Assembly: GCA_016194905.1 (NCBI GenBank)
Contig: JACQAP010000036.1
Location: 1-64,000, forward strand
Length of the DNA: 64,000 nt
Reading direction: 5' to 3'
DNA from: Betaproteobacteria bacterium
Lineage (GTDB): Bacteria > Pseudomonadota > Gammaproteobacteria > Burkholderiales > JACQAP01
In this document: positions 4,028 to 63,512 of the stretch, piece after piece
How the letters are laid out: each line of letters starts with the position of its first letter
Numbering within the stretch: the first letter of the stretch is position 1
Position numbers and translations under genes: made by a program
The notes under the pieces: generated by a model
The model's input: the letters and a program-made list of their open reading frames with translations, nothing else
What the model was told of the DNA's origin: nothing
Databases searched by the model: none

Positions 4028-4362
4028 CGGTCCGCGACTTCGGCCAGCCGCGCGTCGTGTGTGGCAATCGTGTCGCCGCGGCGCGGTTCCAGCGTCCAGT
4101 ATCGGCTGTATTGCTTGGCAACAATAATAGGTTCACCGGGCAAAGCGCCACGGAAAAGAGACAAGGTCGGCACTCCGCCTTTGATCAAGTGCCGATCGTG
4201 CGTTATGGGTCGCTGGATAACTGCCATCGTCGGTTTCCGCCCAGCGCAAACAACGCGATATGCGCGATAGCGAACATCCCGAACGTCAATTTGGGCACAT
4301 TGATCGCCACAATGCATTTGTTTGATCCAGATCAACAGCAGGTCGAGTTTCAGGGAGCCCAA
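4024..4362 (-). other. Possible small unassigned reading frame in the gap 4028-4438
   Basis: The 411-bp gap after the hemerythrin gene holds a minus-strand frame whose last 67 codons (from ATG 4224) have unbiased, protein-like composition, for example GVPTLSLFRGALPGEP and KQYSRYWTLEP. I recognise no family and see no ribosome site. The frame runs across the FNR box at 4322-4335, so at most the inner part could be real. Apart from that box and promoter, nothing else was seen in this gap. Confidence 0.2.
4322..4335 (+). promoter_or_regulatory. FNR/ANR-type box TTGATCCAGATCAA
   Basis: Perfect consensus half-sites, centre 4328.5. The implied transcription start near 4370 gives a leader of about 70 nt to the cytochrome-porin gene at 4439. 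The -10 candidate (CAATCT, 4360-4365) is weak. Confidence 0.75.
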
Positions 4363-4438: not shown

Positions 4439-5851
4439 ATGGAGCTGAATGAGACGACCGTACAGACTCGGAAAGTGAACTTCGTTGTAGCGATTGCATT
4501 TCTTGTTGTCGCTTTCGGGTTGGGGTTTCCCGGACAGTCCCACGCAGTTCCCTCCTTCGCGCGGCAAACCGGCATGGCGTGCCAAGCCTGCCACACCGTG
4601 TATCCCGAGCTTACGCCATTCGGCCGCTCGTTCAAGCTAAACGGCTATCAGATCGACAACCTCCCCCAGGTCCAAGGCATTACGTCATCGAAGGAGTATG
4701 AGCTGCTGCTGAACCAGGTGCCGCCGCTGTCGGTGATGTTCCAGACTTCGTACACCAAGACTGGCAAGGCGTTACCGGACTCCGCGGTGCCGGGCGCCAA
4801 TGCGCAGGACGGCCAACTGCTGTTCCCGCAACAGGCCAGTCTGTTTTATGCCGGGCGGGTCGCGCCGGAGCTGGGAGCTTTTATCCAGATCACCTATGAC
4901 AGCGCGTCCGGAAATGTGCATTGGGACAACTCCGAAATACGTTATGCAAAACAAGTCACAGGAGCGGCGAACGGTCTGACCTGGGGCATCACCATGAACA
5001 ACAACCCCACGGTGCAGGACGTGTGGAACAGCACGCCCGCATGGCAAACGCCCTTCGACCAGAAATCCAGCGCGGCTCCGGTGCCTGGAGCCATCACGCA
5101 AATCGACGGGCTGCTTACCGGCCATGGCGTTGCGGGCTTGACCGGTTACCTGTGGTGGGGGAACTCTGTTTACGGTGAGATCGGGTTCTACCGTTCTTCG
5201 CCGCAGGCCTTTAGCGTCAATGGATTGTCAGGGCCGCTCGACAGCACGGCCGGCGGCACGCTCACGAACAACGCGCCGTACTGGCGGCTCGCCTATGAGC
5301 ACCAGTGGAATCGCAATTCGTTGTCGGTGGGCATGTATGGCATGGAGGCGAAGATCAGCCCCACAGGGCAACCGATCGCCGCCTCCAACGACCGGTTCAG
5401 CGATATCGCGCTCGACGGCCAGTATCAATACATTGACGACGAGCACATCTTCTCGACGCAGACGACTTACATCCGCGAGCGCCAGCATCTCGACGGCACT
5501 TTTGCGCTCGGCGGATCGGAAAATGCGACCAACGACCTGAAAACGTTCAGGCTGGGCGGCAGCTATTACTATCGGCGCACTTTCGGTGGTGCCCTGGGAT
5601 ATTTCTCGACCACGGGCAGCTCCGACGCGCTGTTATACACGGCAAACCCGACGTTCGGCTTCGCCAATAACAGCCCCAACAGCAACGGCTGGATCGGTGA
5701 GCTGGGCTACATCCCTTGGCAGAACGTCAAGTTGCTCTTGCAGTACGTTGCCTACCAGAAGTTCAACGGCGCGAGCTCGAACTACGACGGCAGCGGCAGG
5801 AACGCCGGCGACAACAACACGCTCTATCTGCTCGGCTGGCTGAGTTTCTAG
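4439..5851 (+). CDS. Outer-membrane monoheme cytochrome fused to a beta-barrel (Cyc2-like layout)
   Basis: 470 aa. ATG 4439 follows AGGGGAGAAG; an in-frame TTG 21 nt upstream is less likely. Residues 1-36 form a signal peptide ending QSHA. Directly after it is a single heme motif CQACH (48-52) inside FARQTGMACQACHTVYPEL. The remaining 400 residues lack further heme motifs, are rich in alternating aromatic/polar strands (for example YWRLAYEHQW, SYYYRRTFGGALGYF) and end in Phe, as outer-membrane barrels do. A fused heme-porin is the layout of Cyc2 iron oxidases and related conduits; assignment to that family is inference. The next gene is a periplasmic diheme cytochrome, a logical electron partner. 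An FNR box precedes the gene. Confidence 0.75.
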   Translation: MELNETTVQTRKVNFVVAIAFLVVAFGLGFPGQSHAVPSFARQTGMACQACHTVYPELTPFGRSFKLNGYQIDNLPQVQGITSSKEYELLLNQVPPLSVMFQTSYTKTGKALPDSAVPGANAQDGQLLFPQQASLFYAGRVAPELGAFIQITYDSASGNVHWDNSEIRYAKQVTGAANGLTWGITMNNNPTVQDVWNSTPAWQTPFDQKSSAAPVPGAITQIDGLLTGHGVAGLTGYLWWGNSVYGEIGFYRSSPQAFSVNGLSGPLDSTAGGTLTNNAPYWRLAYEHQWNRNSLSVGMYGMEAKISPTGQPIAASNDRFSDIALDGQYQYIDDEHIFSTQTTYIRERQHLDGTFALGGSENATNDLKTFRLGGSYYYRRTFGGALGYFSTTGSSDALLYTANPTFGFANNSPNSNGWIGELGYIPWQNVKLLLQYVAYQKFNGASSNYDGSGRNAGDNNTLYLLGWLSF

Positions 5852-5874
5852 TGTGGGAAGTGGGAGATATCGAC

Positions 5875-6486
5875 ATGCATAGAAATCTCTTGATCCCGTT
5901 CGCGCTGCTCGCGATTTCCTGTATCGCTCCGGCGTCTGCGCAAGAGTCGGAGGCGCGCAAGCTCGCAACCGAGGCTTGCGCTTCGTGCCACGGGCCCCGA
6001 GGCGAAAGTATCTCGCCCGCGTTCCCGCGGCTGGCGGGCCAGCCGGCGGAGTACCTGGAAGGTCAACTAAAGGCTTTCCGCGACAGGACGCGCGCTGACC
6101 CGATGGCCCAGGCCTACATGTGGGGAATGACGTCGCAGCTCAACGACGATACGATCAAAAGGCTCTCCGCATATTATTCAGCGCAGAAGCCGCTTCCGGG
6201 TAAGACCGTGGACGCCAAACTGGTGCAGCAAGGCAAGGTCATTTATGAGGCAGGCGTCCCCGGAGCGAACGTGCAGGCCTGCGTCACCTGTCACGGGAAA
6301 AATGCGGAAGGCAACGCGAGCTTTCCCAGGCTCGCCGGCCAGCACGCCGAGTACCTGGTCAAGCAGCTCGTCCTGTTTAAGAGCTTGCTGCGGGCGGGTA
6401 GCAACGCACCCATCATGCATAACATCAGCGCGGGCATGTCCTTCGAGCAGATGGAAGCGGTCAGCGCTTACCTGATGTCACGCTAG
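5875..6486 (+). CDS. Periplasmic diheme cytochrome c (c4-like)
   Basis: 203 aa. A signal peptide (about residues 1-22, ending ASAQ) is followed by two similar cytochrome c domains with CASCH and CVTCH. Each is followed by FPRLAGQ-EYL, typical of class I cytochrome c4/c553 tandem proteins, and MHNISAGM-type Met ligands are present. It starts 24 bp after the cytochrome-porin gene with GGGAG before ATG 5875, so the two are likely co-transcribed. Cytochrome c4 usually carries electrons to cbb3 oxidases; here it may link the outer-membrane heme protein to the cbb3 oxidase or NorCB encoded downstream. That link is inference. Confidence 0.85.
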   Translation: MHRNLLIPFALLAISCIAPASAQESEARKLATEACASCHGPRGESISPAFPRLAGQPAEYLEGQLKAFRDRTRADPMAQAYMWGMTSQLNDDTIKRLSAYYSAQKPLPGKTVDAKLVQQGKVIYEAGVPGANVQACVTCHGKNAEGNASFPRLAGQHAEYLVKQLVLFKSLLRAGSNAPIMHNISAGMSFEQMEAVSAYLMSR

Positions 6487-6501: not shown

Positions 6502-7035
6502 GTGTCGAGCGGGCCCACGCTAATTTCTGAACGGAGCGGACGCTTTCTGGTGTGCGTGATCGTCACGGCGCTGATGGTGCTTCCGGCCCATGCCGACCCC
6601 ACGGATGAACTTGCGCGGCTCCGACAGGAAGCAGCACGGATGAGACAGTCCCTTGACGTCCTCGACGCAAGAATTCGGGCACTGGAAAATGGAAATTCGG
6701 ATGCGCGTGCCCCAAGCGAAAGCGACCGATCCGTAGTGCCACCTCCGGAATCCACGCTCACTCAGCCGATGCCGAACACCGCTGCGGTGAATTCGCCGAA
6801 CAGGCAGTCGGTCTCCCCGCTTTTTCTATTGCAGCGCAATTGGTCCGAAATCAAGTCAGGTACGTCGAAAGAACAGGTGGACGCGCTGCTCGGCAAGCCG
6901 GAACGAGTGATGCGCATCAACGGCGATCTTGTGTGGTACTACGTACACCCGGGTTTCGGCCGTGGAACCGTGTTTTTCGATGATGAAGGAAAAGTGTCCG
7001 GTGCGCAGTCGCCACACATTGGCTGGTCTTGGTAG
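6502..7035 (+). CDS. Exported protein with coiled coil and SmpA/BamE-like domain
   Basis: 177 aa from GTG 6502, 15 bp after the c4-like gene, so probably the third gene of that operon. An N-terminal hydrophobic segment ending AHA looks like a signal peptide. Residues 33-60 form a short heptad-rich coiled coil (DELARLRQEAARM). A Pro/Ser linker follows, then a C-terminal domain with IKSGTSKEQVDALLGKPERV and FDDEGKV, the pattern of the SmpA/OmlA (BamE-type) fold. No lipobox cysteine is visible, which argues against classical BamE. It may help assemble or anchor the barrel encoded two genes upstream; this is a guess from context. Confidence 0.6.
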   Translation: MSSGPTLISERSGRFLVCVIVTALMVLPAHADPTDELARLRQEAARMRQSLDVLDARIRALENGNSDARAPSESDRSVVPPPESTLTQPMPNTAAVNSPNRQSVSPLFLLQRNWSEIKSGTSKEQVDALLGKPERVMRINGDLVWYYVHPGFGRGTVFFDDEGKVSGAQSPHIGWSW

Positions 7036-7801: not shown

Positions 7802-8474
7802 ATAGAGTGGACCCAACGATGGTAGTCGGAGAACACGTGTACCCGGGGCGAAACCTGCTGCAGGCATAGAGCTGTCGAAACTTGATGATTTGGCGGCTTG
7901 CGTCGCAGTCGGAGATCGCGTGCGTGCGCAGCCCGCCAGCGATCCCGGTGTGAGAACGTGAAGTTCGACGCGGTGACTGGACGCGGGCGGGGAAGTTGGT
8001 CTGGCATTGCCGATTGGCCACAATGCCGCTCACCATCTGCTCAGCGCCAAAACGCTTTCTTACTGCTCTGATCGGATTCGCTCCTTTCGCCTCAGTTTGC
8101 CAAGAATGCTCTCCCATCAACTGAATAGAGAGAGTCTGCAGCACAGTCGCAGTTCGACCCGCTAACCGCGACGGTCGCCGCAGGAATGGTGGCCAAGGTT
8201 AAGGTATCCGGTCGCTGACCGCCACGCCAGCCGGCTGGCCGATGTGCCCGGAGCTTGATGTAGGTCAACCTGCACGTCGCGCAGCAGCGTATTTTTGGCG
8301 CATACCCAGAGAGATGATGGAACATGAGGAGACCGAGTGGAAATAACCGGCAGACAGTACTACTTGATCTTGCCGACGGATTTCCATCACGCGTTTTGAC
8401 GCATCTTCGGATATGGGGAGAACGCGGTCACCCGCAATCGCGGCGCTCTTCGATTGAAAGGGGAAGGAGCAACA
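7802..8474. other. 673-bp gap: one FNR promoter, no gene recognised
   Basis: Both strands contain only Arg/Ser-rich frames without recognisable domains. The single interpretable element is the FNR box at 8255-8268 with TATTTT as -10, giving a 5' leader of about 170 nt to the DUF302 gene. Confidence 0.5.
8255..8268 (+). promoter_or_regulatory. FNR/ANR-type box TTGATGTAGGTCAA
   Basis: Centre 8261.5, with TATTTT (8290-8295) exactly 31 bp downstream as -10. It serves the DUF302-cytochrome pair starting at 8475. Confidence 0.7.
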
Positions 8475-8867
8475 ATGTCGGCTAAGTACACTTTCGGCAA
8501 GACGGTCAAAATGGGTTTTGATCAGGCGCTCGAACGAGTGACTCGGGAATTGGCAAAGGAAGGCTTTGGCGTTCTCACGAAGATCGACGTCGCAGCAACG
8601 CTCAAGAAGAAGATCGGCTTGAAGATGCCTCCGTATAAGATTCTTGGCGCGTGCAATCCGCATTTCGCGCATCGCGCCCTGGCTGCCGAGCCGCAGATAG
8701 GCGCCCTTCTTCCCTGCAATGTCGTGGTACGTAAGGACGCCGTTGGGAAGACGATAGTGGAGATCATGGACCCTAGGGCGGTATTGCAACTCGTCGAGCG
8801 CCCCGAGATTGGCGAGATCGCCGGCGAAGTGCGCAAGCGTCTCGAGCGTGTTCTCGCCGCGGTTTGA
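8475..8867 (+). CDS. DUF302-family protein
   Basis: 130 aa from ATG 8475, preceded by GGGGAAGGAG. The sequence follows the DUF302 pattern: DQALERVTRELAKEGFGVLTKIDV near the N-terminus, KILGACNPHFAHRAL in the middle and GALLPCNVVVR before the C-terminal helix. No signal peptide is seen. DUF302 proteins have unknown biochemistry but recur in redox and sulfur gene neighbourhoods. The next gene, a small cytochrome, begins 27 bp downstream, suggesting a two-gene operon driven by the FNR promoter at 8255. A few other proteins share the two conserved cysteines (GACNP, LPCN), which may be functional. Confidence 0.8.
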   Translation: MSAKYTFGKTVKMGFDQALERVTRELAKEGFGVLTKIDVAATLKKKIGLKMPPYKILGACNPHFAHRALAAEPQIGALLPCNVVVRKDAVGKTIVEIMDPRAVLQLVERPEIGEIAGEVRKRLERVLAAV

Positions 8868-8894
8868 GCTTTGGCACGCATACACGGAGGTAAG

Positions 8895-9212
8895 GTGATT
8901 AACTGGAGAACGAATAAATCGTCCTTGTCTGGAGTTGTCGTGCTGGCGGGGTCGCTGGCCGCGATATCCTTGGACACGCTGGGTGCTGAACCGGAGCGCG
9001 GCCGTATGCTGCACGACACGCATTGCATTTCCTGCCATGGCACGCAAGTCTACAAACGCGACAGCAAGGTCGCGACGAACTACGAGGAGATACGCACGCA
9101 AGTCGTGCGCTGGGAGACCAATGTTTCCCTGCACTGGAGCGCCGGCGACATCGATGCCGTGACAACTTACCTCGCCCGGTCCTTCTACAAGGTACCCTGC
9201 CCGGTTTGTTGA
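8895..9212 (+). CDS. Small exported monoheme cytochrome c
   Basis: 105 aa from GTG 8895, preceded by CGGAGGTAAG. A signal segment (about residues 8-30, ending LGA) leads to EPERGRMLHDTHCISCHGTQVYKRD, with one CISCH heme motif. The protein then has WSAGDIDAVTTYLARSFYKVPCPVC. It ends in a CPVC motif, unusual for a cytochrome, which may bind a metal or form a disulfide. No obvious axial Met is seen; His or another residue may be the sixth ligand. It follows the DUF302 gene and probably forms an FNR-controlled pair with it. Confidence 0.8.
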   Translation: MINWRTNKSSLSGVVVLAGSLAAISLDTLGAEPERGRMLHDTHCISCHGTQVYKRDSKVATNYEEIRTQVVRWETNVSLHWSAGDIDAVTTYLARSFYKVPCPVC

Positions 9213-11976: not shown

Positions 11977-12536
11977 GGCCGCAACCCACGCGGTGCTGTT
12001 CGCTGCCGATTCAGTACCCTTTTGCAGAAACTGGCCAGCGCCTTGACGTCGCCCGCACCAGGCTCACGAGACGTCGGGTCTGGCAGTTTGTTCGCCGCCC
12101 CATGCGGGCTTCGGATGATCGGGCGAGAAGACATGAGCCATCGGACAGACGGCCATGTTGCAGCGTTGCAGGCGCATGCACGCCGATATACCTTCGTCCA
12201 AGGCTACCCATTTTCCAACGACGGCGCACCATCCCAATGGCGAATTGAACATATGTGGCTCTCTCTTAGACTGGAACGGGTTCCGATACCGCAAAGGTCA
12301 TCCCACGTTCCCATGCAGGCCAGTCTACGATTTCCGCATCGAAGGAGTTTGATCTGGATCAAGATGATGAGGGGATGGTCGCGTCTTGTTGGACATGGGT
12401 TGGTTTCCCCGATCGGGGCCTGGCCGGACGCGGCGCAGCAGACGCGACGACGGTATTCCCGGGACATGATCCTGGAAAAATTTGCGCCCGGGGAACAAAG
12501 CCGGAAAATAGCGGTTTCCTCTTTCTTGTCGCGTTT
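11977..12536. other. 560-bp gap before the sensor kinase
   Basis: No gene is recognised on either strand. The only clear element is the FNR box at 12349-12362 near the 3' end. The long frame that reaches upstream to 12375 is an open extension of the kinase frame, not a likely coding start, since the implied transcription start lies downstream of it. Confidence 0.45.
12349..12362 (+). promoter_or_regulatory. FNR/ANR-type box TTGATCTGGATCAA
   Basis: Perfect consensus, centre 12355.5. It implies a transcript starting near 12397 into the kinase/regulator operon. The -10 region (TCTTGT) is poor, so activation strength is uncertain. Confidence 0.7.
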
Positions 12537-14201
12537 ATGCGCAGACGCTGTTCTTCTGTAGCTGCTTTCTGCGTCGGTTGCGGGGGCATGACCGGGTTCG
12601 CCTGGGCCCAGCAGGCATCGGCTTCGGCGGCCATCCCGGGGAATGCACCGATCTGGTGGTTTGGCTGCGCGATCGTCGCGCTCGGCGTAGCGTTGGTCGT
12701 TGCGGCGCGCTCTGCGCGTTTGCTCGACGACAAGGCCCGGTTCGAGGCCATTGTCCAGTCGGCGATGGACGCAATCATTACCGTCGATTCCGGGAAGCGC
12801 ATCGTCCTGTTCAACGATGCCGCGGAACAAATGTTCGGCTGCAGCAGATCCGAAGCCATCGGCGAGCCGCTCGACCGTTTCATTCCCGAGCGGTTCCGCG
12901 CCGCGCACAGCGCCCACGTCGAGCGCTTCGCGCGCACCGGCAATACGTCACGGCGCATGGGCCTGCAGTCCGCATTGTGGGCACTGCGTGCCGACGGCGC
13001 CGAGTTTCCAATCGAAGCATCGATTTCGCTGGCCAAGGCCGGCGGCCAGAAGCTGCTCACGGTGATCATCCGCGACATTACCGAACGCATGACCGCCGCG
13101 CACGAACTTGAACGGGCGCGCGAGCAGGTAAGGGCGGGCGAGCTGCGACTCAATGCAATCGTGCAGTCGGCGATGGATGCGATCATTACCGTCGATTCCG
13201 ATCAGCATATCGTGCTGTTCAACGCTGCGGCCGAGAAGATGTTCGGTTGCGGCGTTGCCGAGGCAACGGGGGGGTCGCTCGATCGATTCATTCCGCAACG
13301 CATGCGTGCAAGTCACCGTGCGCACGTCGATCACTTCTCCCGCACCGGAGAAACATCCAGGCGCATGGGCGTCCGGTCGATACTGCTGGCATTGCGGGCC
13401 GATGGGACGGAATTTCCGATCGAGGCATCGATCTCCCAGGCGGTCGTCGGCGACCAGAAGCTGCTCACGGTGATCCTGCACGACATTACGGAGCGCACCC
13501 GGGCGGAGGAGGAAATCCGGCGTGCAAACGACGAACTCCACGAACTCTCGCTGGCAATGATCGAGGTACGCGAAACCGAGCGTACCCGGATCGCCCGCGA
13601 ACTGCACGATGAACTCGGACAGGTCCTGACCGCGCTCAAGATGGACGTGGAGCTGTTCAGCGGAAAAATCCCCCAAGACCGTGCCGATCTCGCGGAACAT
13701 GTGGCTTCCATGAATAGGCTGCTCGATTCGACGGTTGCCACCACGCGTAGGATTTCGAGCGATTTGCGCCCGCTCGTGCTCGACGATCTGGGTCTTGGCG
13801 CGGCGGCGGAGTGGTTGATCGAAAGCCTGGCCCAGCGCGCGGGCATTGCCTTCGAACTGAAAATCGATCCGTCCTGCGCCGATCTCGGCGAACCGCATGC
13901 GTCGACGCTGTTTCGGGTCATGCAGGAATCGCTGACCAACGTCGCGCGCCATGCGCGGGCGACCCGCGTCGCAGTGCGGCTGATGCGCGCAGGCGGCGAT
14001 GCGGTGCTCACCATCGCCGACAATGGCGTCGGAATGAAATCCGATGCACGCGCGAAACCCGGTTCGTTCGGTTTGCGGGGCATACGAGAGCGCATATTGC
14101 TTCTCGGCGGGGTGTTGAGCATCGTTAGCGAACCCTCCGGGGGTACCACCGTGTCGGCCCGCCTGCCGATGCCGATCACGGCCAGCCGGGAGAATGCATG
14201 A
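12537..14201 (+). CDS. Sensor histidine kinase, two PAS domains plus HisKA_3/HATPase_c (NarX/DosS class)
   Basis: 554 aa from ATG 12537. An earlier in-frame ATG at 12375 would lie upstream of the predicted FNR-dependent transcript start, though no strong ribosome site decides the matter. An N-terminal hydrophobic stretch and a second segment around residues 40-60 suggest membrane anchoring. PAS 1 (about 72-184) and PAS 2 (208-320) are near copies. The HisKA_3 dimerisation box ETERTRIARELHDELGQ carries the phospho-accepting His at about residue 357. The HATPase part has TLFRVMQESLTNVARHA, DNGVG and GSFGLRGIRERI. The stop overlaps the downstream regulator start (ATGA), so the pair is translationally coupled. 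The ligand is unknown; no heme-binding GAF domain of the DosS type is seen. Confidence 0.9.
   Translation: MRRRCSSVAAFCVGCGGMTGFAWAQQASASAAIPGNAPIWWFGCAIVALGVALVVAARSARLLDDKARFEAIVQSAMDAIITVDSGKRIVLFNDAAEQMFGCSRSEAIGEPLDRFIPERFRAAHSAHVERFARTGNTSRRMGLQSALWALRADGAEFPIEASISLAKAGGQKLLTVIIRDITERMTAAHELERAREQVRAGELRLNAIVQSAMDAIITVDSDQHIVLFNAAAEKMFGCGVAEATGGSLDRFIPQRMRASHRAHVDHFSRTGETSRRMGVRSILLALRADGTEFPIEASISQAVVGDQKLLTVILHDITERTRAEEEIRRANDELHELSLAMIEVRETERTRIARELHDELGQVLTALKMDVELFSGKIPQDRADLAEHVASMNRLLDSTVATTRRISSDLRPLVLDDLGLGAAAEWLIESLAQRAGIAFELKIDPSCADLGEPHASTLFRVMQESLTNVARHARATRVAVRLMRAGGDAVLTIADNGVGMKSDARAKPGSFGLRGIRERILLLGGVLSIVSEPSGGTTVSARLPMPITASRENA
12750..13497 (+). repeat. Intragenic duplication of the PAS-coding segment (period 408 bp)
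   Basis: Segment 12750-13089 reappears at 13158-13497. Long stretches are almost identical, for example CAGTCGGCGATGGA followed by ATCATTACCGTCGATTCC in both copies. The period is exactly 136 codons. Confidence 0.85.
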
Positions 14202-14842
14202 CCACGCGAATTCTTGTCGCCGATGACCACGCAATCGTGCGCGAGGGACTGCGCCGCATCCTCGCGGCCGACCCGACATTCGTCGTCATGGGAGAGGCGA
14301 GTGACGGCAACGAGGTGATGGCCGCGGTGCGGGCCGGCGGTTTCGAAGTGCTGCTGCTCGATCTCTCGATGCCGGGTCGCAGCGGAATAGAGTTGCTGAA
14401 GCGGGTGAAGGAGGAACGTCCTGAGTTGAGCGTGCTTGTGCTTTCGATGCACGCCGAACAGCAGTACGCGGTACGGGCGATTCGCGCCGGCGCGTCTGGA
14501 TATCTTACCAAGGACACCGCGGCGACCCAGCTGACCGCCGCCATTCGCAAGGTCGCCTCCGGGGGACTGTTCATTACGCCCGCGGTCGCGGAAGCGCTGG
14601 CTCGTGGGCTGCAGTCACCAGACGGCGGGTTGCCCCACAAGCGGCTCACCGATCGCGAGTTCGAAATTTTCCTGATGCTGGCCAAGGGAGAATCCGTGAC
14701 CGGTATCGCGGAGCGCCTCAGCCTGAGCGTCAAGACGGCGAGTACGCACAAGACCCATATTCTGGAAAAGATGAAGCTCGGTTCGATCGCCGAGCTGGTC
14801 CGCTACGCGCTCGAGCACAGCCTTCTGGATTCCCAGACCTAG
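14198..14842 (+). CDS. NarL/LuxR-family response regulator
   Basis: 214 aa, normal for the family. The receiver domain has the acidic pair D9-D10, phosphorylation site D55 in LLLDLSMPGRSG, a Ser/Thr position in VLVLSMHAEQQ and the Lys of GYLTKDTA. A C-terminal LuxR-type helix-turn-helix covers about 146-206 (LTDREFEIFLMLAKGES, LSLSVKTASTHKTHILEKM). It overlaps the sensor kinase gene by 4 bp and is its evident partner. The closest known systems by architecture are NarXL, NreBC and DosSR, all tied to oxygen, nitrate or NO. Its target sites are unknown; palindromes at 14877-14890 and 14968-14977 just downstream are candidates. Confidence 0.92.
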   Translation: MTTRILVADDHAIVREGLRRILAADPTFVVMGEASDGNEVMAAVRAGGFEVLLLDLSMPGRSGIELLKRVKEERPELSVLVLSMHAEQQYAVRAIRAGASGYLTKDTAATQLTAAIRKVASGGLFITPAVAEALARGLQSPDGGLPHKRLTDREFEIFLMLAKGESVTGIAERLSLSVKTASTHKTHILEKMKLGSIAELVRYALEHSLLDSQT

Positions 14843-14876
14843 AAGCAAGCGGGTTCCCGCCCCTTCCCTTTCCGAG

Positions 14877-14977
14877 TAGGAGTTTTCCTAAAAGCGGCCG
14901 TACGGCTTCTGCGGTCGTGTTTCGTCCAGTGTTGAGGGGGAGGACGCCTGCCGGCGCCTCCCCGATAGGAATATTCC
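14877..14977. promoter_or_regulatory. Three inverted repeats between the NarL-type regulator and the receiver gene
   Basis: TAGGA-N4-TCCTA lies at 14877-14890. GGGGAGG/CCTCCCC (14937-14943 and 14957-14963) can form a GC-rich hairpin. The perfect palindrome GGAATATTCC lies at 14968-14977. The first and last look like operator sites, the middle one like a terminator stem without a T run. No FNR box is present in this promoter region. Confidence 0.4.
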
Positions 14978-15083
14978 GATGTCAGACCGGATTTTCCCAG
15001 CTGACAGAATCAGCGTCCGCCGATGGTGCGGCTGTGCTCGTCTCTCCAAACTGCGAGACATGCATAAAGCTGGCGGCAACCCA

Positions 15084-15467
15084 ATGAATATCTTCGTGGT
15101 GGAAGGCTCACCCGAAATCAGAAAGCGGCTCGTTTCGATGGTTCGGAGGGTTGCCGGCATCAACGTGATCGGGGAGGCGGATGCGGTGAGCGAAGCAATC
15201 GACGACATACTGCGCGGCCCCGCGGACACGCTGCTGCTAGGTCTGCGGCCCATCGCGGGTGTCGATCTCGATGGCCTGGCTCGCCTGAAACAGTCCCGCC
15301 CGCAACTGCGCGTGATCGTGCTCACCAACTTCGCTACCCCGCAATACCGCCAAGCAAGCCTTTCGGCCGGTGCGGAATTCTGTCTCGACAAATCCCAGGA
15401 ATTCGGCCTTGTTCCCGGAATCCTGCGCAGGTGGCTCGATGCGGCCGGAGATCGACCGGTCGCTTGA
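15084..15467 (+). CDS. Stand-alone receiver-like protein lacking the phospho-Asp
   Basis: 127 aa from ATG 15084; an upstream ATG at 15060 is also possible. The fold is a CheY-like receiver (MNIFVVEGSPEIRKRLVSMV, RVIVLTNFATPQYRQASLSAGAEFCLDKS). The conserved phosphorylation site is changed: the usual LLLD is LLLGL, so Asp is Gly, and the acidic pocket reads VEG rather than DD. The Thr and Lys switch residues remain. It therefore cannot work by normal phosphorylation and may act by protein binding. It has no output domain and is followed 40 bp later by the FNR-type regulator, so the two are probably one operon. Confidence 0.75.
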   Translation: MNIFVVEGSPEIRKRLVSMVRRVAGINVIGEADAVSEAIDDILRGPADTLLLGLRPIAGVDLDGLARLKQSRPQLRVIVLTNFATPQYRQASLSAGAEFCLDKSQEFGLVPGILRRWLDAAGDRPVA

Positions 15468-15507
15468 ACGAAGGCCCGACTGCATACCACTCATAAAGGA
15501 GAGAGCG

Positions 15508-16386
15508 ATGTACGACTCGGAATTTGTTAGCACCGAATCGACCAACGGGACCGCAACCCCGCTTGTTTCCCCGCACGCGGCCGTGCCTCACAACCGGTCG
15601 ATGGTCAGCCTCTCGGAAGTGGCGGCCATGCTCGGCGTCCCGATCGACGTTCCCACAGGCATGACCGACGTCGAATTCCCAGTCCGGCGTCTTCAGCCGG
15701 GCGAGACGCTTTGCCGGGCCGGGGACGAATTCGACGCCTTGTATGTCGTGCGATCCGGGTTCCTCAAGACAGTCAGTTTCGACGGGACCGGCAACGAGCA
15801 GGTGCTGGCCTTCCCGATGCGCGGAGACGCCATCGGTCTCGACGGCTTCGACCAGGGGCACTACACAGCGGATGCAATCGCGCTGGAGTCCTGTCACGTC
15901 ATCATCGTGCCCTTCGCGCGCATTGCCGGGCTTGCACACCGTATCCCCGGTATCGAGCGCCTCATCTACTCCATCTTCAACCGCGAGCTGGTGCACAGGC
16001 AGAACATGGTCCGGCTGCTGGGGATGCTCAACGCGGAAGCACGCGTCGCCGCCTTCCTGCTCGACCTGTCGGAGCGCTTCGGACGCCTGGGTTGCTCGAA
16101 GTCCTCTTTCGTCCTGCGCATGACGCGCCAGGAACTGGGCAGCTATCTCGGCATAAAACTCGAGACGGTCAGCCGGGCGCTGTCGGCGTTCGCCGCTTCG
16201 GGCGTGATGGATGTCAGTCGCCGCGAGATGGTGTTGAACGACGTGGAAGGGCTGCGGCGCAAGCTTGAATCGCCGGCCGCCAAGGATCTTGCGCGCCGCA
16301 CCCGCCATGAGGGGGCGGTCGGCTCGATGTCTTCGTCTGCGCGGGTTGCGTCGCGGGCGGTGTCCTGGTCGCCGATGGCCGCCTGA
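15508..16386 (+). CDS. CRP/FNR-family regulator without the FNR iron-sulfur cysteines
   Basis: 292 aa from ATG 15508, preceded by AAAGGAGAGAG. The cNMP-like sensor domain (about 56-140) is FNR-like (LQPGETLCRAGDEFDALYVVRSG). The DNA-binding helix-turn-helix TRQELGSYLGIKLETVSRAL (206-225) keeps E219, S222 and R223, the residues that read TTGAT-N4-ATCAA in FNR. Cysteines occur only at 69, 129 and 196; 129 aligns with FNR C122, but the N-terminal C-x2-C cluster that ligates 4Fe-4S is missing. It therefore resembles DNR/FixK-like proteins in lacking the oxygen-labile cluster. The C-terminus runs about 45 residues past the normal FNR end. It is the obvious candidate to bind the FNR boxes of this window. 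Confidence 0.88.
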   Translation: MYDSEFVSTESTNGTATPLVSPHAAVPHNRSMVSLSEVAAMLGVPIDVPTGMTDVEFPVRRLQPGETLCRAGDEFDALYVVRSGFLKTVSFDGTGNEQVLAFPMRGDAIGLDGFDQGHYTADAIALESCHVIIVPFARIAGLAHRIPGIERLIYSIFNRELVHRQNMVRLLGMLNAEARVAAFLLDLSERFGRLGCSKSSFVLRMTRQELGSYLGIKLETVSRALSAFAASGVMDVSRREMVLNDVEGLRRKLESPAAKDLARRTRHEGAVGSMSSSARVASRAVSWSPMAA

Positions 16387-26513: not shown

Positions 26514-26527
26514 TTGATCTATGTCAA
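26514..26527 (+). promoter_or_regulatory. FNR/ANR-type box TTGATCTATGTCAA
   Basis: Centre 26520.5; TAGCAT (26550-26555) lies 32 bp downstream as -10. It should drive ccoNOQP from a start near 26562. The box lies between divergent genes and could also affect the MlaC-like gene. Confidence 0.8.
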
Positions 26528-26653: not shown

Positions 26654-28081
26654 ATGCAGGAGCAAACGACTTACAACTACAAAGTCGTCCGGCAGTTCGC
26701 CATCATGACGGTGGTGTGGGGGATCGTCGGGATGACCGTGGGCGTGCTGCTCGCCGCGCAACTCATGTTCCCCGACCTGACTTACGGCATCCCCTGGCTG
26801 TCGTACGGTCGCTTGCGTCCATTGCACACCAACGCCGTGGTGTTTGCCTTCGGCGGCTCGGCGCTTTTCGCGACCAGCTATTACGTCGTGCAGCGCACCT
26901 GTCACGCGCGCCTGTTCTGCGACAGGCTGGCCGCCTTTTCTTTCTGGGGCTGGCAGGCGGTGATCGTGGCGGCCGCAATCACGCTGCCGCTGGGCATCAC
27001 CACCTCGCACGAATATGCGGAGCTGGAATGGCCGATCGATATTCTCATCACGCTGGTGTGGGTGGCGTATGCGGTGGTGTTCTTCGGCACGATCGCCAGG
27101 CGCAAGGTGCCCCACATCTATGTGGCCAACTGGTTCTTCGGTGCTTTCATTCTCACGGTTGCGCTGCTGCACATCGTCAACAGCGCCGAAGTGCCGGTGA
27201 GCCTGTGGAAGTCGTACTACGTGTACGCGGGCGCACAGGATGCAATGGTCCAATGGTGGTACGGGCACAACGCCGTGGGATTTTTCCTCACGGCCGGCTT
27301 CCTGGGAATGATGTACTACTTCGTGCCGAAGCAGGCTGGACGCCCGATTTACAGTTACCGGCTGTCGGTCGTGCATTTCTGGGCGCTGATATTCACCTAC
27401 ATGTGGGCGGGCCCGCATCACCTGCACTACACGGCATTGCCGGACTGGGCGCAGTCGATCGGCATGATCTTTTCGCTGATCCTGCTGGCGCCCTCCTGGG
27501 GCGGCATGATCAACGGCATCATGACGCTGTCGGGCGCGTGGCACAAACTGCGCACCGATCCGATCCTCAAGTTCCTGATCACCTCGCTCTCTTTCTACGG
27601 CATGTCCACTTTCGAGGGGCCGATGATGTCGATCAAGACGGTCAACTCCCTGTCCCACTATACCGACTGGACCATCGGGCACGTGCACTCCGGCGCGCTG
27701 GGCTGGGTAGCGATGATCTCGGTGGGCAGCCTGTACTACATGATCCCGCGTTTGTACGGACGCATCGAGATGTACAGCATGCGGCTGGTCACGCTGCACT
27801 TCTGGATCGCGACCACCGGCGTGGTGTTGTACATCGCGGCGATGTGGATTGCGGGCGTAATGCAGGGTCTGATGTGGCGCGCGGTGAACGTCGACGGCAC
27901 GCTGACCTACACCTTCGTGGAAAGCGTCAAGGCGACCTATCCGTTCTACGCCATCCGCCTGCTGGGTGGCGTGATGTTCCTGGGCGGCATGTTCGTCATG
28001 GCCTACAACACGTGGAAGACGGTGCATGGTGCCAGGGCGGTGGACGCGCCGGTACTGGCTTCCGTCGGCGCCCACGCCTGA
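26654..28081 (+). CDS. ccoN: cbb3-type cytochrome c oxidase subunit I
   Basis: 475 aa inner-membrane heme-copper oxidase subunit that reduces O2 at a high-affinity heme b3-CuB centre. About twelve membrane helices are visible. Ligand motifs include [14 protein letters not shown] (low-spin heme His), [23 protein letters not shown] (CuB His and the CcoN Tyr), [13 protein letters not shown] (two CuB His) and [14 protein letters not shown] (heme ligands). ATG 26654 follows CGAGGGAGCA. It opens the ccoNOQPGH operon behind an FNR box, the arrangement known from ANR/FnrL-controlled cbb3 loci. Confidence 0.97.
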
Positions 28082-28103
28082 TTCTTACAGGGGAAAACCA
28101 ATC

Positions 28104-28730
28104 ATGGCTACGCAATCCGCATCCGGCCACGAGTTCATCGAGAAGAATATGACCTGGCTGATCGTTCTGGTCATCCTGGTGGTGAGCGTCGGTGGCCTGG
28201 TAGAAATCGTACCGCTTTTCTTCCAGCGTTCCACCACTGAGCCGGTGGCCGGCATGAAACCCTACACGGCGTTGCAACTGACGGGGCGTGACATCTATAT
28301 CCGCGAAGGTTGCAACAACTGCCACAGCCAGATGATCCGGCCGCTGCGCGCCGAGACGGAGCGCTATGGCCACTACTCGGTGGCGGGAGAGTCCGTCTAT
28401 GACCATCCGTTCCTGTGGGGCAGCAAGCGTACCGGTCCTGATCTCGCGCGGGTGGGCGGCCGTTACAGCGACGAATGGCACCGCCAGCATCTGAATCAGC
28501 CGCGCGATCTGGTGCCCGAGTCGAACATGCCCGCCTATCCCTGGCTGGCGCAAGCCACCGCAGACGCTGAGCTGATCGAGACGAAAATGAAAGTGTTGCG
28601 CAGCGTCGGTGTTCCGTACTCGGAAGAGGACATCGCCAGGTCGCGCGATGATCTCAAGGACAAGACCGAGGCCGACGCGCTCATCGCCTATCTGCAAGGC
28701 CTCGGTACCGCACTGAAAGGAGTGAAGTGA
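28104..28730 (+). CDS. ccoO: cbb3-type cytochrome c oxidase subunit II (monoheme)
   Basis: 208 aa. One N-terminal anchor helix ([23 protein letters not shown]) is followed by a periplasmic cytochrome c domain with CNNCH (70-74) in [15 protein letters not shown], a strict CcoO signature. Further CcoO features are [16 protein letters not shown] and the Met ligand region [13 protein letters not shown] 28104 lies 22 bp after ccoN. It relays electrons from CcoP to the catalytic subunit. Confidence 0.97.
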
Positions 28731-28732
28731 TC

Positions 28733-28912
28733 ATGGACCCGGTGACTGGATTTCGAGTCGGCTCGACCCTCCTGATGTTGCTGATTTTTGCGGGCATCGT
28801 GTGGTGGGCTTATGGCGGCAGGCGCGGCGCGCGGTTCGACGTTGCCGCGCACAGCGTGCTGCAGGACGACGATGCGCCGGTTTCGCTGCGTGGCGACGGG
28901 AGAGAAAAGTGA
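28733..28912 (+). CDS. ccoQ: cbb3-type oxidase small subunit CcoQ
   Basis: 59 aa from ATG 28733; a GTG at 28727 overlapping the ccoO stop is possible. One membrane helix (STLLMLLIFAGIVWWAYG) and a short cytoplasmic tail with FDVAAHSVLQDDD. The position between ccoO and ccoP and the FD-A-LPF-type tail identify it as CcoQ/FixQ, which stabilises the complex. Its QDDD tail is like that of CcoS. Confidence 0.88.
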   Translation: MDPVTGFRVGSTLLMLLIFAGIVWWAYGGRRGARFDVAAHSVLQDDDAPVSLRGDGREK

Positions 28913-29823
28913 GCGACTTCAACGGCGAATTCTGGACTGTCTACATCTCGGTTATCACCGTGGCCAGCGTTCTGGCCTGTACCGTGCTGCTGTGGACGCT
29001 TTCCACGAAGCGCGTTACAGCGGGGCGCACGGCCGACGTGACGGGACACGTATGGGACGAAGACCTCGAGGAGTACAACAATCCGCTGCCGCGGTGGTGG
29101 ATCTGGCTGTTCTACCTCACGATCGCGTTCGGCGTGGCTTACCTCGTACTGTACCCCGGACTGGGCAGCTTCCCGGGGCTGCTCAAATGGAGTTCGCGCG
29201 GCGAATACGAAGCCGAACAGGCCAAGGCCAGGGAGACGTACCAGCCGCTCTACGCCCGATATGCGGCGATGTCCATTCCCGATGTCGCCCGTGATTCGCA
29301 GGCGCGCGAAATGGGTCAGCGGCTGTTCCTAAACTATTGCGCGCAGTGCCACGCATCGGATGCGCGCGGCGGCAAGGGATTTCCCGATCTGACGGACCAG
29401 GACTGGCTCTACGGCGGGGATCCGGAAACGATCGTGGCCACCATCACCAACGGCCGCAAAGCAATGATGCCGGCCTGGGGCAAGATCGTCGGCGACGAAG
29501 GCACCCGGAATCTCGCGCACTACGTGATATCGCTTTCGGGTGGCGCGCACGACGAGTTGCGCGCGGCGTACGGCAAGGAGCTATTCGCCGCCAACTGCGT
29601 CGCCTGCCATGGGCCCGAGGGCAAGGGCAACCCGGTTCTCGGTGCCGCGAATCTGACCGACAAGATCTGGCTCTACGGCGGCAGCAGTACTGCGCTCGTC
29701 GAAACCATCGGCAAGGGCCGCAACGGCGTGATGCCGGCCTGGGGCGAATTCCTCGGGCCCGACAAGGTGCATATCGTTGCGGCCTACGTGTACGGCTTGT
29801 CGCATCCGGCCGGCGGCCAGTGA
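28909..29823 (+). CDS. ccoP: cbb3-type cytochrome c oxidase subunit III (diheme)
   Basis: 304 aa from GTG 28909, which overlaps the ccoQ stop (GTGA). The N-terminus has two membrane segments (about 10-31 and 63-82) around the conserved GHVWDEDLEEYNNPLPRWW. Two cytochrome c domains follow, with CAQCH (144-148) and CVACH (230-234), each with an MPAWG Met-ligand motif. It accepts electrons from soluble cytochromes. The two-helix N-terminus is the normal proteobacterial CcoP type. Confidence 0.97.
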   Translation: MSDFNGEFWTVYISVITVASVLACTVLLWTLSTKRVTAGRTADVTGHVWDEDLEEYNNPLPRWWIWLFYLTIAFGVAYLVLYPGLGSFPGLLKWSSRGEYEAEQAKARETYQPLYARYAAMSIPDVARDSQAREMGQRLFLNYCAQCHASDARGGKGFPDLTDQDWLYGGDPETIVATITNGRKAMMPAWGKIVGDEGTRNLAHYVISLSGGAHDELRAAYGKELFAANCVACHGPEGKGNPVLGAANLTDKIWLYGGSSTALVETIGKGRNGVMPAWGEFLGPDKVHIVAAYVYGLSHPAGGQ

Positions 29824-61384: not shown

Positions 61385-61398
61385 TTGATCTGGATCAA
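61385..61398 (+). promoter_or_regulatory. FNR/DNR-type box TTGATCTGGATCAA
   Basis: Perfect consensus, centre 61391.5; GACTAT (61420-61425) lies 31 bp away. It drives norCB, a classical DNR/NNR/FNR target. Confidence 0.82.
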
Positions 61399-61496: not shown

Positions 61497-62093
61497 ATGG
61501 TCGCTGAAGATCCCGCCTTCTGGCGCGCCGGTGCCATCAGTTCCACTCTCGTCATGCTGATCGTGCTGGTCTTCCTCACAGTGGACACTCTCGCCACCAT
61601 CCGCCCGGGTGGCGTCAACGTCCCTGCCTACACCGTCATCAACAAGGAAATCCGTTATGAGTTCGACGTCCAGACCAACCGCTATCGGCCGGTGATCGGT
61701 GCGGACCAACTGCTGTTCGGGCGCAGCTACTCTGCGCCGGAAGCCGACGAGGCGATGCACCTGGGCAAGCTCGTGATCCAGAGCCGGAACTGCATGAACT
61801 GCCATACGTTCTTCGGCAACGGCGCCTATTACGCGCCGGATCTGACCAAAGCCTGGCTGGATCCCGCCTGGCAGCAGATGTGGATGCCGATGACACAATC
61901 GGCCACCCGCGAGGAAGCCATGGCGGTTTTCCTGATGAACCCCGAAAAATTCCCCACATGGAGCCGGCAGATGCCCAACCTCGCGATCACGCGCAAAGAA
62001 GCCGAAGCGGTCGTCGCGTATCTCAAATGGATGTCGGCGGTGGAGACCAACGGCTTTCCGATTCATTTCGGCCACATCCAGACCAACAGGTAG
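61497..62093 (+). CDS. norC: Nitric oxide reductase cytochrome c subunit
   Basis: 198 aa from ATG 61497, preceded by GGGAGGATAA. One N-terminal membrane anchor (13-33) and a periplasmic cytochrome domain with CMNCH (C99, C102, H103) in SRNCMNCHTFFGNGAYYAPDLTKAW, an exact NorC signature. The Met ligand region is RQMPNLAITRKEAEAVVAYLKW. It passes electrons from soluble cytochromes to NorB. FNR/DNR box upstream. Confidence 0.96.
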   Translation: MVAEDPAFWRAGAISSTLVMLIVLVFLTVDTLATIRPGGVNVPAYTVINKEIRYEFDVQTNRYRPVIGADQLLFGRSYSAPEADEAMHLGKLVIQSRNCMNCHTFFGNGAYYAPDLTKAWLDPAWQQMWMPMTQSATREEAMAVFLMNPEKFPTWSRQMPNLAITRKEAEAVVAYLKWMSAVETNGFPIHFGHIQTNR

Positions 62094-62102
62094 GAGAACG
62101 AC

Positions 62103-63512
62103 ATGTTCCGATCCCAGCAATTGGCGCTCAAGTACTTTGCAGCGGCGATGACGCTGTTCGGCATCATGATCGTGGCCGGGTTGCTCGCATCCACCCACTA
62201 CGTTCAGGACGGATTCCTGCTGAACAAACTCGACTTCAGCATCACCAAGACGCTGCACATCGATACCATGATCATCTGGCTGCTGATGGGCTTCATCGGC
62301 GCGGTGTACTGGTTCCTGCCGATCGAGCTTGAGCGCGAGGTCGAGGGTGTCAAGCTCGCCGAAGTCATGTTCTGGATCTTTTGTGCGGCGGTCGCCGTGG
62401 TCGCCGCGGTTTTCATTTTCGTCCAGTACGGGCCGGCGACCGAGATGTCGCTCTGGTTCATCAACCAGGGACGCAAGTACGTCGAGGCGCCGCGCTGGGC
62501 CGCGATCGGCATCACGCTGGTGGTGTTGGTGTTCATCTACAACGTGGTCGCGACCGCACTCAAGGCCAAAAAGATCACCGGCGTCATGGGCGTGCTGATG
62601 GTGGATCTGATTCCGCTGTTTGGCCTGTACCTCATCGCGTTTCCTGCGATTACCAACATGTCGGAGGACCAGTATTGGTGGTGGTGGTTGGTGCATCTTT
62701 GGGTCGAGGCCACCTGGGAAATCCTGATCGGCTGCATCATGGCGCTGGCGCTGATGCAACTCCTCGGCACCGCGCGGCGCATCGTCGAGACCTGGCTTTA
62801 CATTGAAGTCGCGCTGGTTCTGGGCACCGGCATCCTCGGCCTTGGGCACCATTACTTCTGGATCGGGACACCTTCGTACTGGCTCAGCATCGGCGGCTTT
62901 TTCTCCGCGCTCGAGCCGCTGCCGCTGCTGGGCATGGTCGTGCACGCGGTGTACGACGCCGGCGCGCACCGCATGAAGACGACCAACAAGCCTGCGTTCT
63001 TCTGGGTCATGGCCGAAGCATTCGGCAACTTCATCGGTGGCGGCGTCTTCGGGTTCATGATGACCCTGCCGCAGATCAACCTCTTTACCCATGGCACGCA
63101 ATGGACCGTGTCACACGGCCATTTCGCTTTCTGGGGCGCCTACGGGTGCGGCATCATCGCCGTGATCTACCTCGCATTGCAGAAGGCGCGGGCCGCGCAG
63201 CAGTTGGACGGCACGGCGTGGAAATGGTCGTTTGCTCTGCTCAATATCGGCATCGTCGGCATGGTGGGGGCACTGCTGGTTTCGGGCATCTCGCAGGCTT
63301 TCTATGAGCGGGCCATGGGCGGCTCCACCCTGCAGGCCTTCATGGAAGGGCAGACCAACGTGTGGTTCGTACAGGGCATAGTCATGCGCCTGATATTCGG
63401 CTTCGTCTTCGCGGCCGGTTACGTGATCGTGATGGTGGACCTGCTCACCATCGGCAAGAAACGTGGCGCGGCCGAAAACCTGAAGGCGCGCGTAGCGGGA
63501 GGCCCGGCATGA
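62103..63512 (+). CDS. norB: Nitric oxide reductase catalytic subunit (cNOR)
   Basis: 469 aa from ATG 62103, 9 bp after norC. Twelve predicted membrane helices of the heme-copper superfamily. Ligand segments: LHIDTMIIWLLMGFIGAVYWFLP, WWLVHLWVEATWEILIG (FeB His with the catalytic Glu residues), GILGLGHHYFWIG and SHGHFAFWGAYG. It reduces 2 NO to N2O. No quinol-oxidase N-terminal extension is present, so electrons come through NorC. norQ and norD are not seen in the visible part. Confidence 0.97.
   Translation: MFRSQQLALKYFAAAMTLFGIMIVAGLLASTHYVQDGFLLNKLDFSITKTLHIDTMIIWLLMGFIGAVYWFLPIELEREVEGVKLAEVMFWIFCAAVAVVAAVFIFVQYGPATEMSLWFINQGRKYVEAPRWAAIGITLVVLVFIYNVVATALKAKKITGVMGVLMVDLIPLFGLYLIAFPAITNMSEDQYWWWWLVHLWVEATWEILIGCIMALALMQLLGTARRIVETWLYIEVALVLGTGILGLGHHYFWIGTPSYWLSIGGFFSALEPLPLLGMVVHAVYDAGAHRMKTTNKPAFFWVMAEAFGNFIGGGVFGFMMTLPQINLFTHGTQWTVSHGHFAFWGAYGCGIIAVIYLALQKARAAQQLDGTAWKWSFALLNIGIVGMVGALLVSGISQAFYERAMGGSTLQAFMEGQTNVWFVQGIVMRLIFGFVFAAGYVIVMVDLLTIGKKRGAAENLKARVAGGPA

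Follow-up and report, generated by a model that had tools for sequence, protein, structure and literature searches.

Cyc2 proteins are known from iron-oxidizing bacteria, and Cyc2 is in use as a marker for such bacteria. The locus described here raises the question of what a Cyc2-type gene does in a bacterium which shows no sign of living on iron. It lies in the window, the whole stretch of 64 000 nucleotides that was analysed, from a genome of 4.75 Mb which is 99.8% complete (G000). An earlier note, made from the sequence alone, had proposed an extracellular electron conduit at 4439–6486, composed of a heme-porin fusion and a diheme cytochrome. The reading frame, the heme site, the C-terminal Phe, the diheme neighbour and an FNR box were each found where that note had put them. 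Both genes are present as placed, but the proposed extent leaves out a third conserved gene. We consider it probable that the resulting three-gene operon is an electron conduit of the Cyc2–Cyc1 type within a low-oxygen (FNR-type) regulon, leading electrons inwards, with Fe2+ as the most likely donor and with an auxiliary role. The operon and its box comprise the following features:

4322–4335 (no strand): FNR/ANR-type binding box, TTGATCCAGATCAA; a perfect palindrome, enriched upstream of paired relatives
4439–5851 (+ strand): Cyc2-type fused cytochrome-porin, 470 aa; assigned from motif, AlphaFold2 (AF2), Foldseek, homology to a rus-operon Cyc2 and trees
5875–6486 (+ strand): Cyc1-like diheme cytochrome c4, 203 aa, with CXXCH at residues 35 and 136; assigned from PF00034, a match to 1H1O and adjacency
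6502–7035 (+ strand): exported coiled-coil protein, 177 aa, with a C-terminal BamE/OsmE-like domain; assigned from PF04355, AF2, Foldseek and conserved loci

The diheme reading frame starts 24 bases past the TAG stop of the 470-aa gene, a spacing which makes co-transcription of the two genes likely. The promoter scan gave no sigma-70 match.

The 470-aa protein and the Cyc2 family

The reading frame from the ATG at 4439 encodes exactly 470 residues, ending in LLGWLSF, and contains a single CXXCH (CQACH, residues 48–52). Published criteria for Cyc2 are a signal peptide, one CXXCH, a length of at least 365 residues, the motifs AXPXFAR[QK][TY] and PXL, and a 16-stranded porin; the published consensus is AXPXFAR[QK][TY]-N3-CXXCH-N3-PXL, and a published tree of the family comprises 1,593 sequences. 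Residues 36–58, AVPSFARQTGMACQACHTVYPEL, fit this consensus exactly (AVPSFARQT-GMA-CQACH-TVY-PEL). The protein has the one heme site and the length, and its putative signal peptide corresponds to a hydrophobic N-terminal segment, which is a helix (11–28) in the model.

The earlier note had named structure prediction as a check, with a soluble periplasmic protein as the outcome that would contradict it. AF2, using an alignment with 72 relatives, gave a barrel (pLDDT 85.3, pTM 0.83). Sixteen long strands (residues 97–469) follow short helices around the heme motif. In this model, built without heme, pLDDT is below 50 at residues 29–43, and we count this low confidence against the conduit. The top PDB matches of the barrel in Foldseek are 16-stranded general porins of the OmpF/Omp-Pst class (best E 2.3e-9). 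Most strands have one hydrophobic face, while the other carries conserved polar residues in the alignment of the 72 relatives. From this pattern, the strongly conserved residues M100, Q132, Q150, R168, Y245, Y251, Y281, R283, D322 and D326 are predicted to face the lumen. A soluble periplasmic protein was rejected on account of the barrel model and the porin matches, and an ordinary porin with a chance CXXCH because the heme segment and the predicted pore residues are conserved in the 72 relatives. Pfam and NCBIfam had no model for the protein, and the 72 relatives gave no meaningful Pfam match either. Sequence searches against solved structures, with the single sequence or a profile, gave nothing meaningful, which also counts against the conduit.

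For comparison within the family, an anchor Cyc2 was found via a rusticyanin search; it is recognized by operon content and is not a named Acidithiobacillus ferrooxidans Cyc2. In its genome (G659), the Cyc2-motif gene is followed by a cupredoxin-like and a coxB-like gene (both assigned by eye), then by COX1 and CtaA; a match to rusticyanin lies further along (137 bits, slightly below the cut-off of 146.7). This corresponds to the Acidihalobacter type of rus locus, as published. The 470-aa protein aligns with this rus-operon Cyc2 end to end (36% identity over 451 aa, E 1e-98). Both proteins contain M100, D163, R168, D194, R283, D322, D326 and E347 and an NYDG-GRNA-DNNT stretch near the C-terminal end, and most of the predicted lumen residues conserved in the 72 relatives are also found in the anchor. 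With presumed Cluster-1 Cyc2 sequences, labelled so from their motif and taxon range, the alignment is confined to the ~117 N-terminal residues.

Two trees place the window clade within a large family that includes the rus-operon Cyc2, and the Cluster-1-like sequences on a separate branch. The clade is supported at 99 in both (10 rows with FastTree; all seven of its included rows with IQ-TREE). The protein thus falls outside the branch presumed to be Cyc2 Cluster 1 of the neutrophilic iron oxidizers. A clear affiliation with a non-conduit family, the second outcome that the earlier note had set against its proposal, did not appear, and the Cyc2-type heme-porin fusion that it had proposed is borne out by the signature motif, the 16-stranded barrel and the full-length homology to the rus-operon Cyc2.

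The earlier note did not mention that the Cyc2 family has a wide distribution and had been reported from Burkholderiales before. Li et al. 2023 (PMC10654088) connect A. ferrooxidans Cyc2 and Cyc1 to homologues in Burkholderiales and elsewhere, and the presence of the family in this order is therefore no novelty. Many relatives of the 470-aa protein are not known iron oxidizers, and the authors of published Cyc2 work describe the function as uncertain outside the characterized clades; both points count against the conduit.

Two other candidate anchors were dropped. One, a Cyc2-like gene from a plasmid whose record carries the label A. ferrooxidans, scores the same as a hit on an Acidiphilium cryptum plasmid and has no rus operon alongside. 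In the rusticyanin-bearing genome G604, the contig with cup, coxA and rusticyanin genes breaks off ahead of cyc2, and the genome yielded no Cyc2. A search for a named Cluster-1 Cyc2 on plasmids gave no match. The window genome encodes a second, very divergent Cyc2-motif protein (L191:5331-6812; 493 aa, IPAFARMYGMACGACHSAFPAL) with no adjoining heme partner. A further family member, in a Melioribacter MAG labelled MnB_16 (L102:3850-5187), has a monoheme cytochrome gene directly upstream.

The diheme partner and the BamE-like third gene

Two segments of the 203-aa protein match PF00034 in Pfam. Its best PDB match is 1H1O, cytochrome c-552 (E 6.9e-35), followed by other c4 proteins (3.6e-27). We take 1H1O to be the structure of A. 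ferrooxidans Cyc1. In that species, cyc1 encodes cytochrome c552/c4 and lies directly after cyc2 in the rus operon, and the protein has been crystallized. The protein from the window has the two c-type domains with CXXCH and the c4 fold, and its gene adjoins cyc2. An NCBIfam match to PdsA (54.5 bits, cut-off 330) was set aside.

Counted over non-redundant loci, a diheme gene lies directly downstream in 61 of 124 relatives and a monoheme gene in 13. A diheme-type neighbour is likewise present on annotated plasmids of Caballeronia, Ideonella dechloratans and Methylocystis. The neighbour which the earlier note had called c4-like is of c4 type; its nearest structure is that of A. ferrooxidans Cyc1, and its pairing is conserved. 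In Methylocystis sp. MJC1, three c-type cytochrome genes come after a Cyc2-like gene on a plasmid (L170:4842-8612).

The 177-aa product of the third gene matches PF04355 (28.5 bits, cut-off 23.2; some homologues are slightly below the cut-off). AF2 models its BamE-like domain with pLDDT 94–97, the overall pTM being 0.44, and the first Foldseek matches of the model are OsmE and BamE structures (best E 1.1e-3, probability 1.00). Each of the 10 loci in the window clade has this gene directly after the pair. It also occurs near cyc2 in seven loci outside this clade, several of which have no diheme gene. The open papers searched contain no link between Cyc2 and BamE.

The FNR-type box and the low-oxygen genes of the window

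The box at 4322–4335 is ~103 bases 5′ of the ATG at 4439, so that the operon carries the TTGAT-N4-ATCAA sequence of an FNR regulon at its promoter. Chance does not account for it: the window contains six perfect boxes (0.0 expected from shuffles), 19 TTGAY-N4-RTCAA sites, and 20 sites with at most one mismatch to TTGAT-N4-ATCAA (0.45 expected from shuffles). Boxes with at most one mismatch occur upstream of 18 of the 61 relatives that have the diheme gene, where 0.84 would be expected from the remaining sequence of these loci; they occur at three of 39 loci without a downstream heme gene and at two of 13 with a monoheme gene. At one relative's locus (L055), an FNR gene with the N-terminal Cys-X2-Cys-X5-Cys and hemN are located directly upstream of the operon and divergent to it. 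No FNR regulator is linked to Cyc2 in the open papers searched, where co-mentions concern ferredoxin-NADP reductase or a reference title.

A candidate reader of the box and two possible electron sinks are encoded elsewhere in the window:

15370–16386 (+ strand): FNR-like regulator (NF008365) lacking the FNR cysteine cluster at its N terminus, candidate reader of the box
26654–29823 (+ strand): cbb3 oxidase subunits CcoN, CcoO and CcoP (TIGR00780, TIGR00781 and TIGR00782, all over cut-off), a proposed electron sink
61497–63512 (+ strand): putative NorC and NorB (NorB against 3O0R, E 3.2e-89), a possible alternative sink

The NF008365 match of the regulator (149 bits) is under the cut-off of 228 and begins at profile position 51. 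It is the only strong FNR match in the window genome, where three others are weak (at most 26 bits), and a cognate FNR with the N-terminal [4Fe–4S] cysteines was not found there. The regulator may be FixK- or Dnr-like. The FNR box of the earlier note thus stands, being perfect and recurring across relatives. Its suggested signal, low oxygen or NO, is no more than plausible, since the sole strong FNR-like protein is without the N-terminal cysteine cluster of O2-sensing FNR. Genes for a PAS-PAS-HisKA_3 kinase, a LuxR-type response regulator and the FNR-like regulator stand in a row at 12375–16386, with a perfect box at 12349; this row could be a FixLJ-FixK-like cascade.

Boxes are found upstream of the cbb3 genes (an FNR-like box at 26514) and of the putative NorC/NorB genes (at 61385), NorC being called by position and one CXXCH. 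The window thus holds CcoN, CcoO, CcoP, HemN and NorB, with boxes near most of them, and the oxidase and NorB to which the earlier note had referred are both present. As a whole (1–64000), it is an FNR-type regulon island, with ~19 near-perfect boxes around the genes for cbb3, hemN, NorB, phosphoketolase, acetate kinase, Usp, Hsp20 and a P-type ATPase. Its universal stress and heat-shock proteins recall the lxa locus of Burkholderia cenocepacia, which is activated by low oxygen. An FNR-like box at 8255 precedes a DUF302 gene and a gene for a small monoheme cytochrome (8454–9212).

The composition of this island, which also encodes a hemerythrin-domain protein beside NorB, Usp and Hsp20, would suit a device that is protective and not energy-yielding, one that takes away Fe(II) or some other reduced metal, or that acts at the cell surface as a scavenger of oxygen or NO, and so limits damage at the oxic–anoxic boundary; a genome without RuBisCO would agree with this too. 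The conserved, dedicated c4 partner points instead to coupling with the respiratory chain, and we give the protective function little credence.

The window genome gave no match to RuBisCO or rusticyanin and none above cut-off to NirK. For NirS, it contains two short, unconvincing Cytochrom_D1 matches (40 and 33 bits, in frames of 242 and 314 aa). The absence of RuBisCO and of convincing NirS or NirK, which the earlier note did not mention, counts against the conduit and makes the operon look like a device for auxiliary Fe(II) or electron uptake, not for iron-based growth. The 470-aa protein is present in two of the four sampled genomes of the genus, with no match in two of the three others, which indicates an accessory trait. 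A true lithoautotrophic iron oxidizer with this operon as its main energy pathway, as the Cyc2/Cyc1 homology might suggest, is made very improbable by the missing RuBisCO and rusticyanin matches and by the patchy distribution in the genus.

Proposed electron route and comparison with known systems

The conduit reading draws on the motif, the barrel model, the homology to the rus-operon Cyc2, the conserved lumen residues, the 1H1O-like partner, the conserved pair, the box enrichment and the FNR/hemN arrangement at L055. In the proposed route, the Cyc2-type protein would reside in the outer membrane, its single heme at the base of the 16-stranded barrel. The heme would be reduced by a small soluble donor that enters the pore, Fe2+ being the likeliest. 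At the periplasmic face, the diheme c4 would take up the electron and pass it to the co-regulated cbb3 oxidase, or perhaps to NorBC. The BamE-like protein may have a part in the assembly or stability of the cytochrome-barrel. For a bacterium without RuBisCO, the benefit probably lies in auxiliary energy, in scavenging of oxygen or NO, or in survival, and not in lithoautotrophic growth.

Electrons might also flow outwards, the c4 feeding the barrel heme under oxygen limitation and the heme an acceptor outside the cell, for instance Fe(III) chelates, for redox balance. FNR-type control, the island of low-oxygen genes and a genome in which no autotrophy genes were found are in keeping with such a direction. 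It is nevertheless unlikely: the Cyc2 proteins characterized in the literature oxidize Fe(II) (the midpoint potential of Cyc2PV-1 is 208 mV), a single heme at the base of a narrow pore suits small soluble donors, and inward flow would have co-regulated sinks in the oxidase and NorB.

The Cyc2–Cyc1 kind of system is known already; FNR-type control and a BamE-like third gene in this branch are apparently undescribed in the open papers searched. We put forward a broader proposal tentatively, as a possibility towards which we do not yet lean: an undescribed Cyc2 branch, with a cyc2-cyc1-bamE-like operon under FNR-type control. Such an operon would allow ordinary non-autotrophic proteobacteria, once oxygen is exhausted, to supply cbb3 or NO reductase with electrons taken from Fe2+ or a different small donor, and its BamE-like factor would be dedicated to building the heme-plugged barrel. 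Should the FNR-controlled branch function as a conduit, many bacteria whose life is not based on iron would have uptake of electrons, from iron or otherwise, as an accessory trait for low oxygen, and the Cyc2 marker would need careful reading. As to dedicated factors for the assembly of a heme-plugged barrel, the conserved BamE-like gene would be a first candidate. Culturable Burkholderiales relatives would permit a direct test of both ideas.

Among known systems, Cluster 1 Cyc2 (Mariprofundus, Gallionellaceae) has the heme-domain motif and, as published, the overall architecture in common with the 470-aa protein, but none of 11 Cluster-1-like loci has an FNR-type box. The 177-aa protein has the C-terminal domain of BamE/OsmE-like outer-membrane proteins; unlike these, it has no visible lipobox cysteine, carries an N-terminal coiled coil and a Pro/Ala linker, and is encoded in a cytochrome operon. 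The diheme protein has its c4 fold and its position after cyc2 in common with A. ferrooxidans Cyc1 (1H1O) and differs from it in the predicted sink (cbb3, NorBC) and in regulation. Closest is the Cluster 2 Cyc2 of the Acidithiobacillus/Acidihalobacter rus operon, which is alike in motif, single heme, 16-stranded barrel and full-length homology, and in A. ferrooxidans also in the cyc1-type diheme gene directly 3′ of cyc2. Unlike the rus operon, the locus in the window has no adjacent cup, coxBACD or rusticyanin genes and belongs to a genome without RuBisCO, and it adds an FNR-type box, a BamE-like gene and a cbb3/NorB island.
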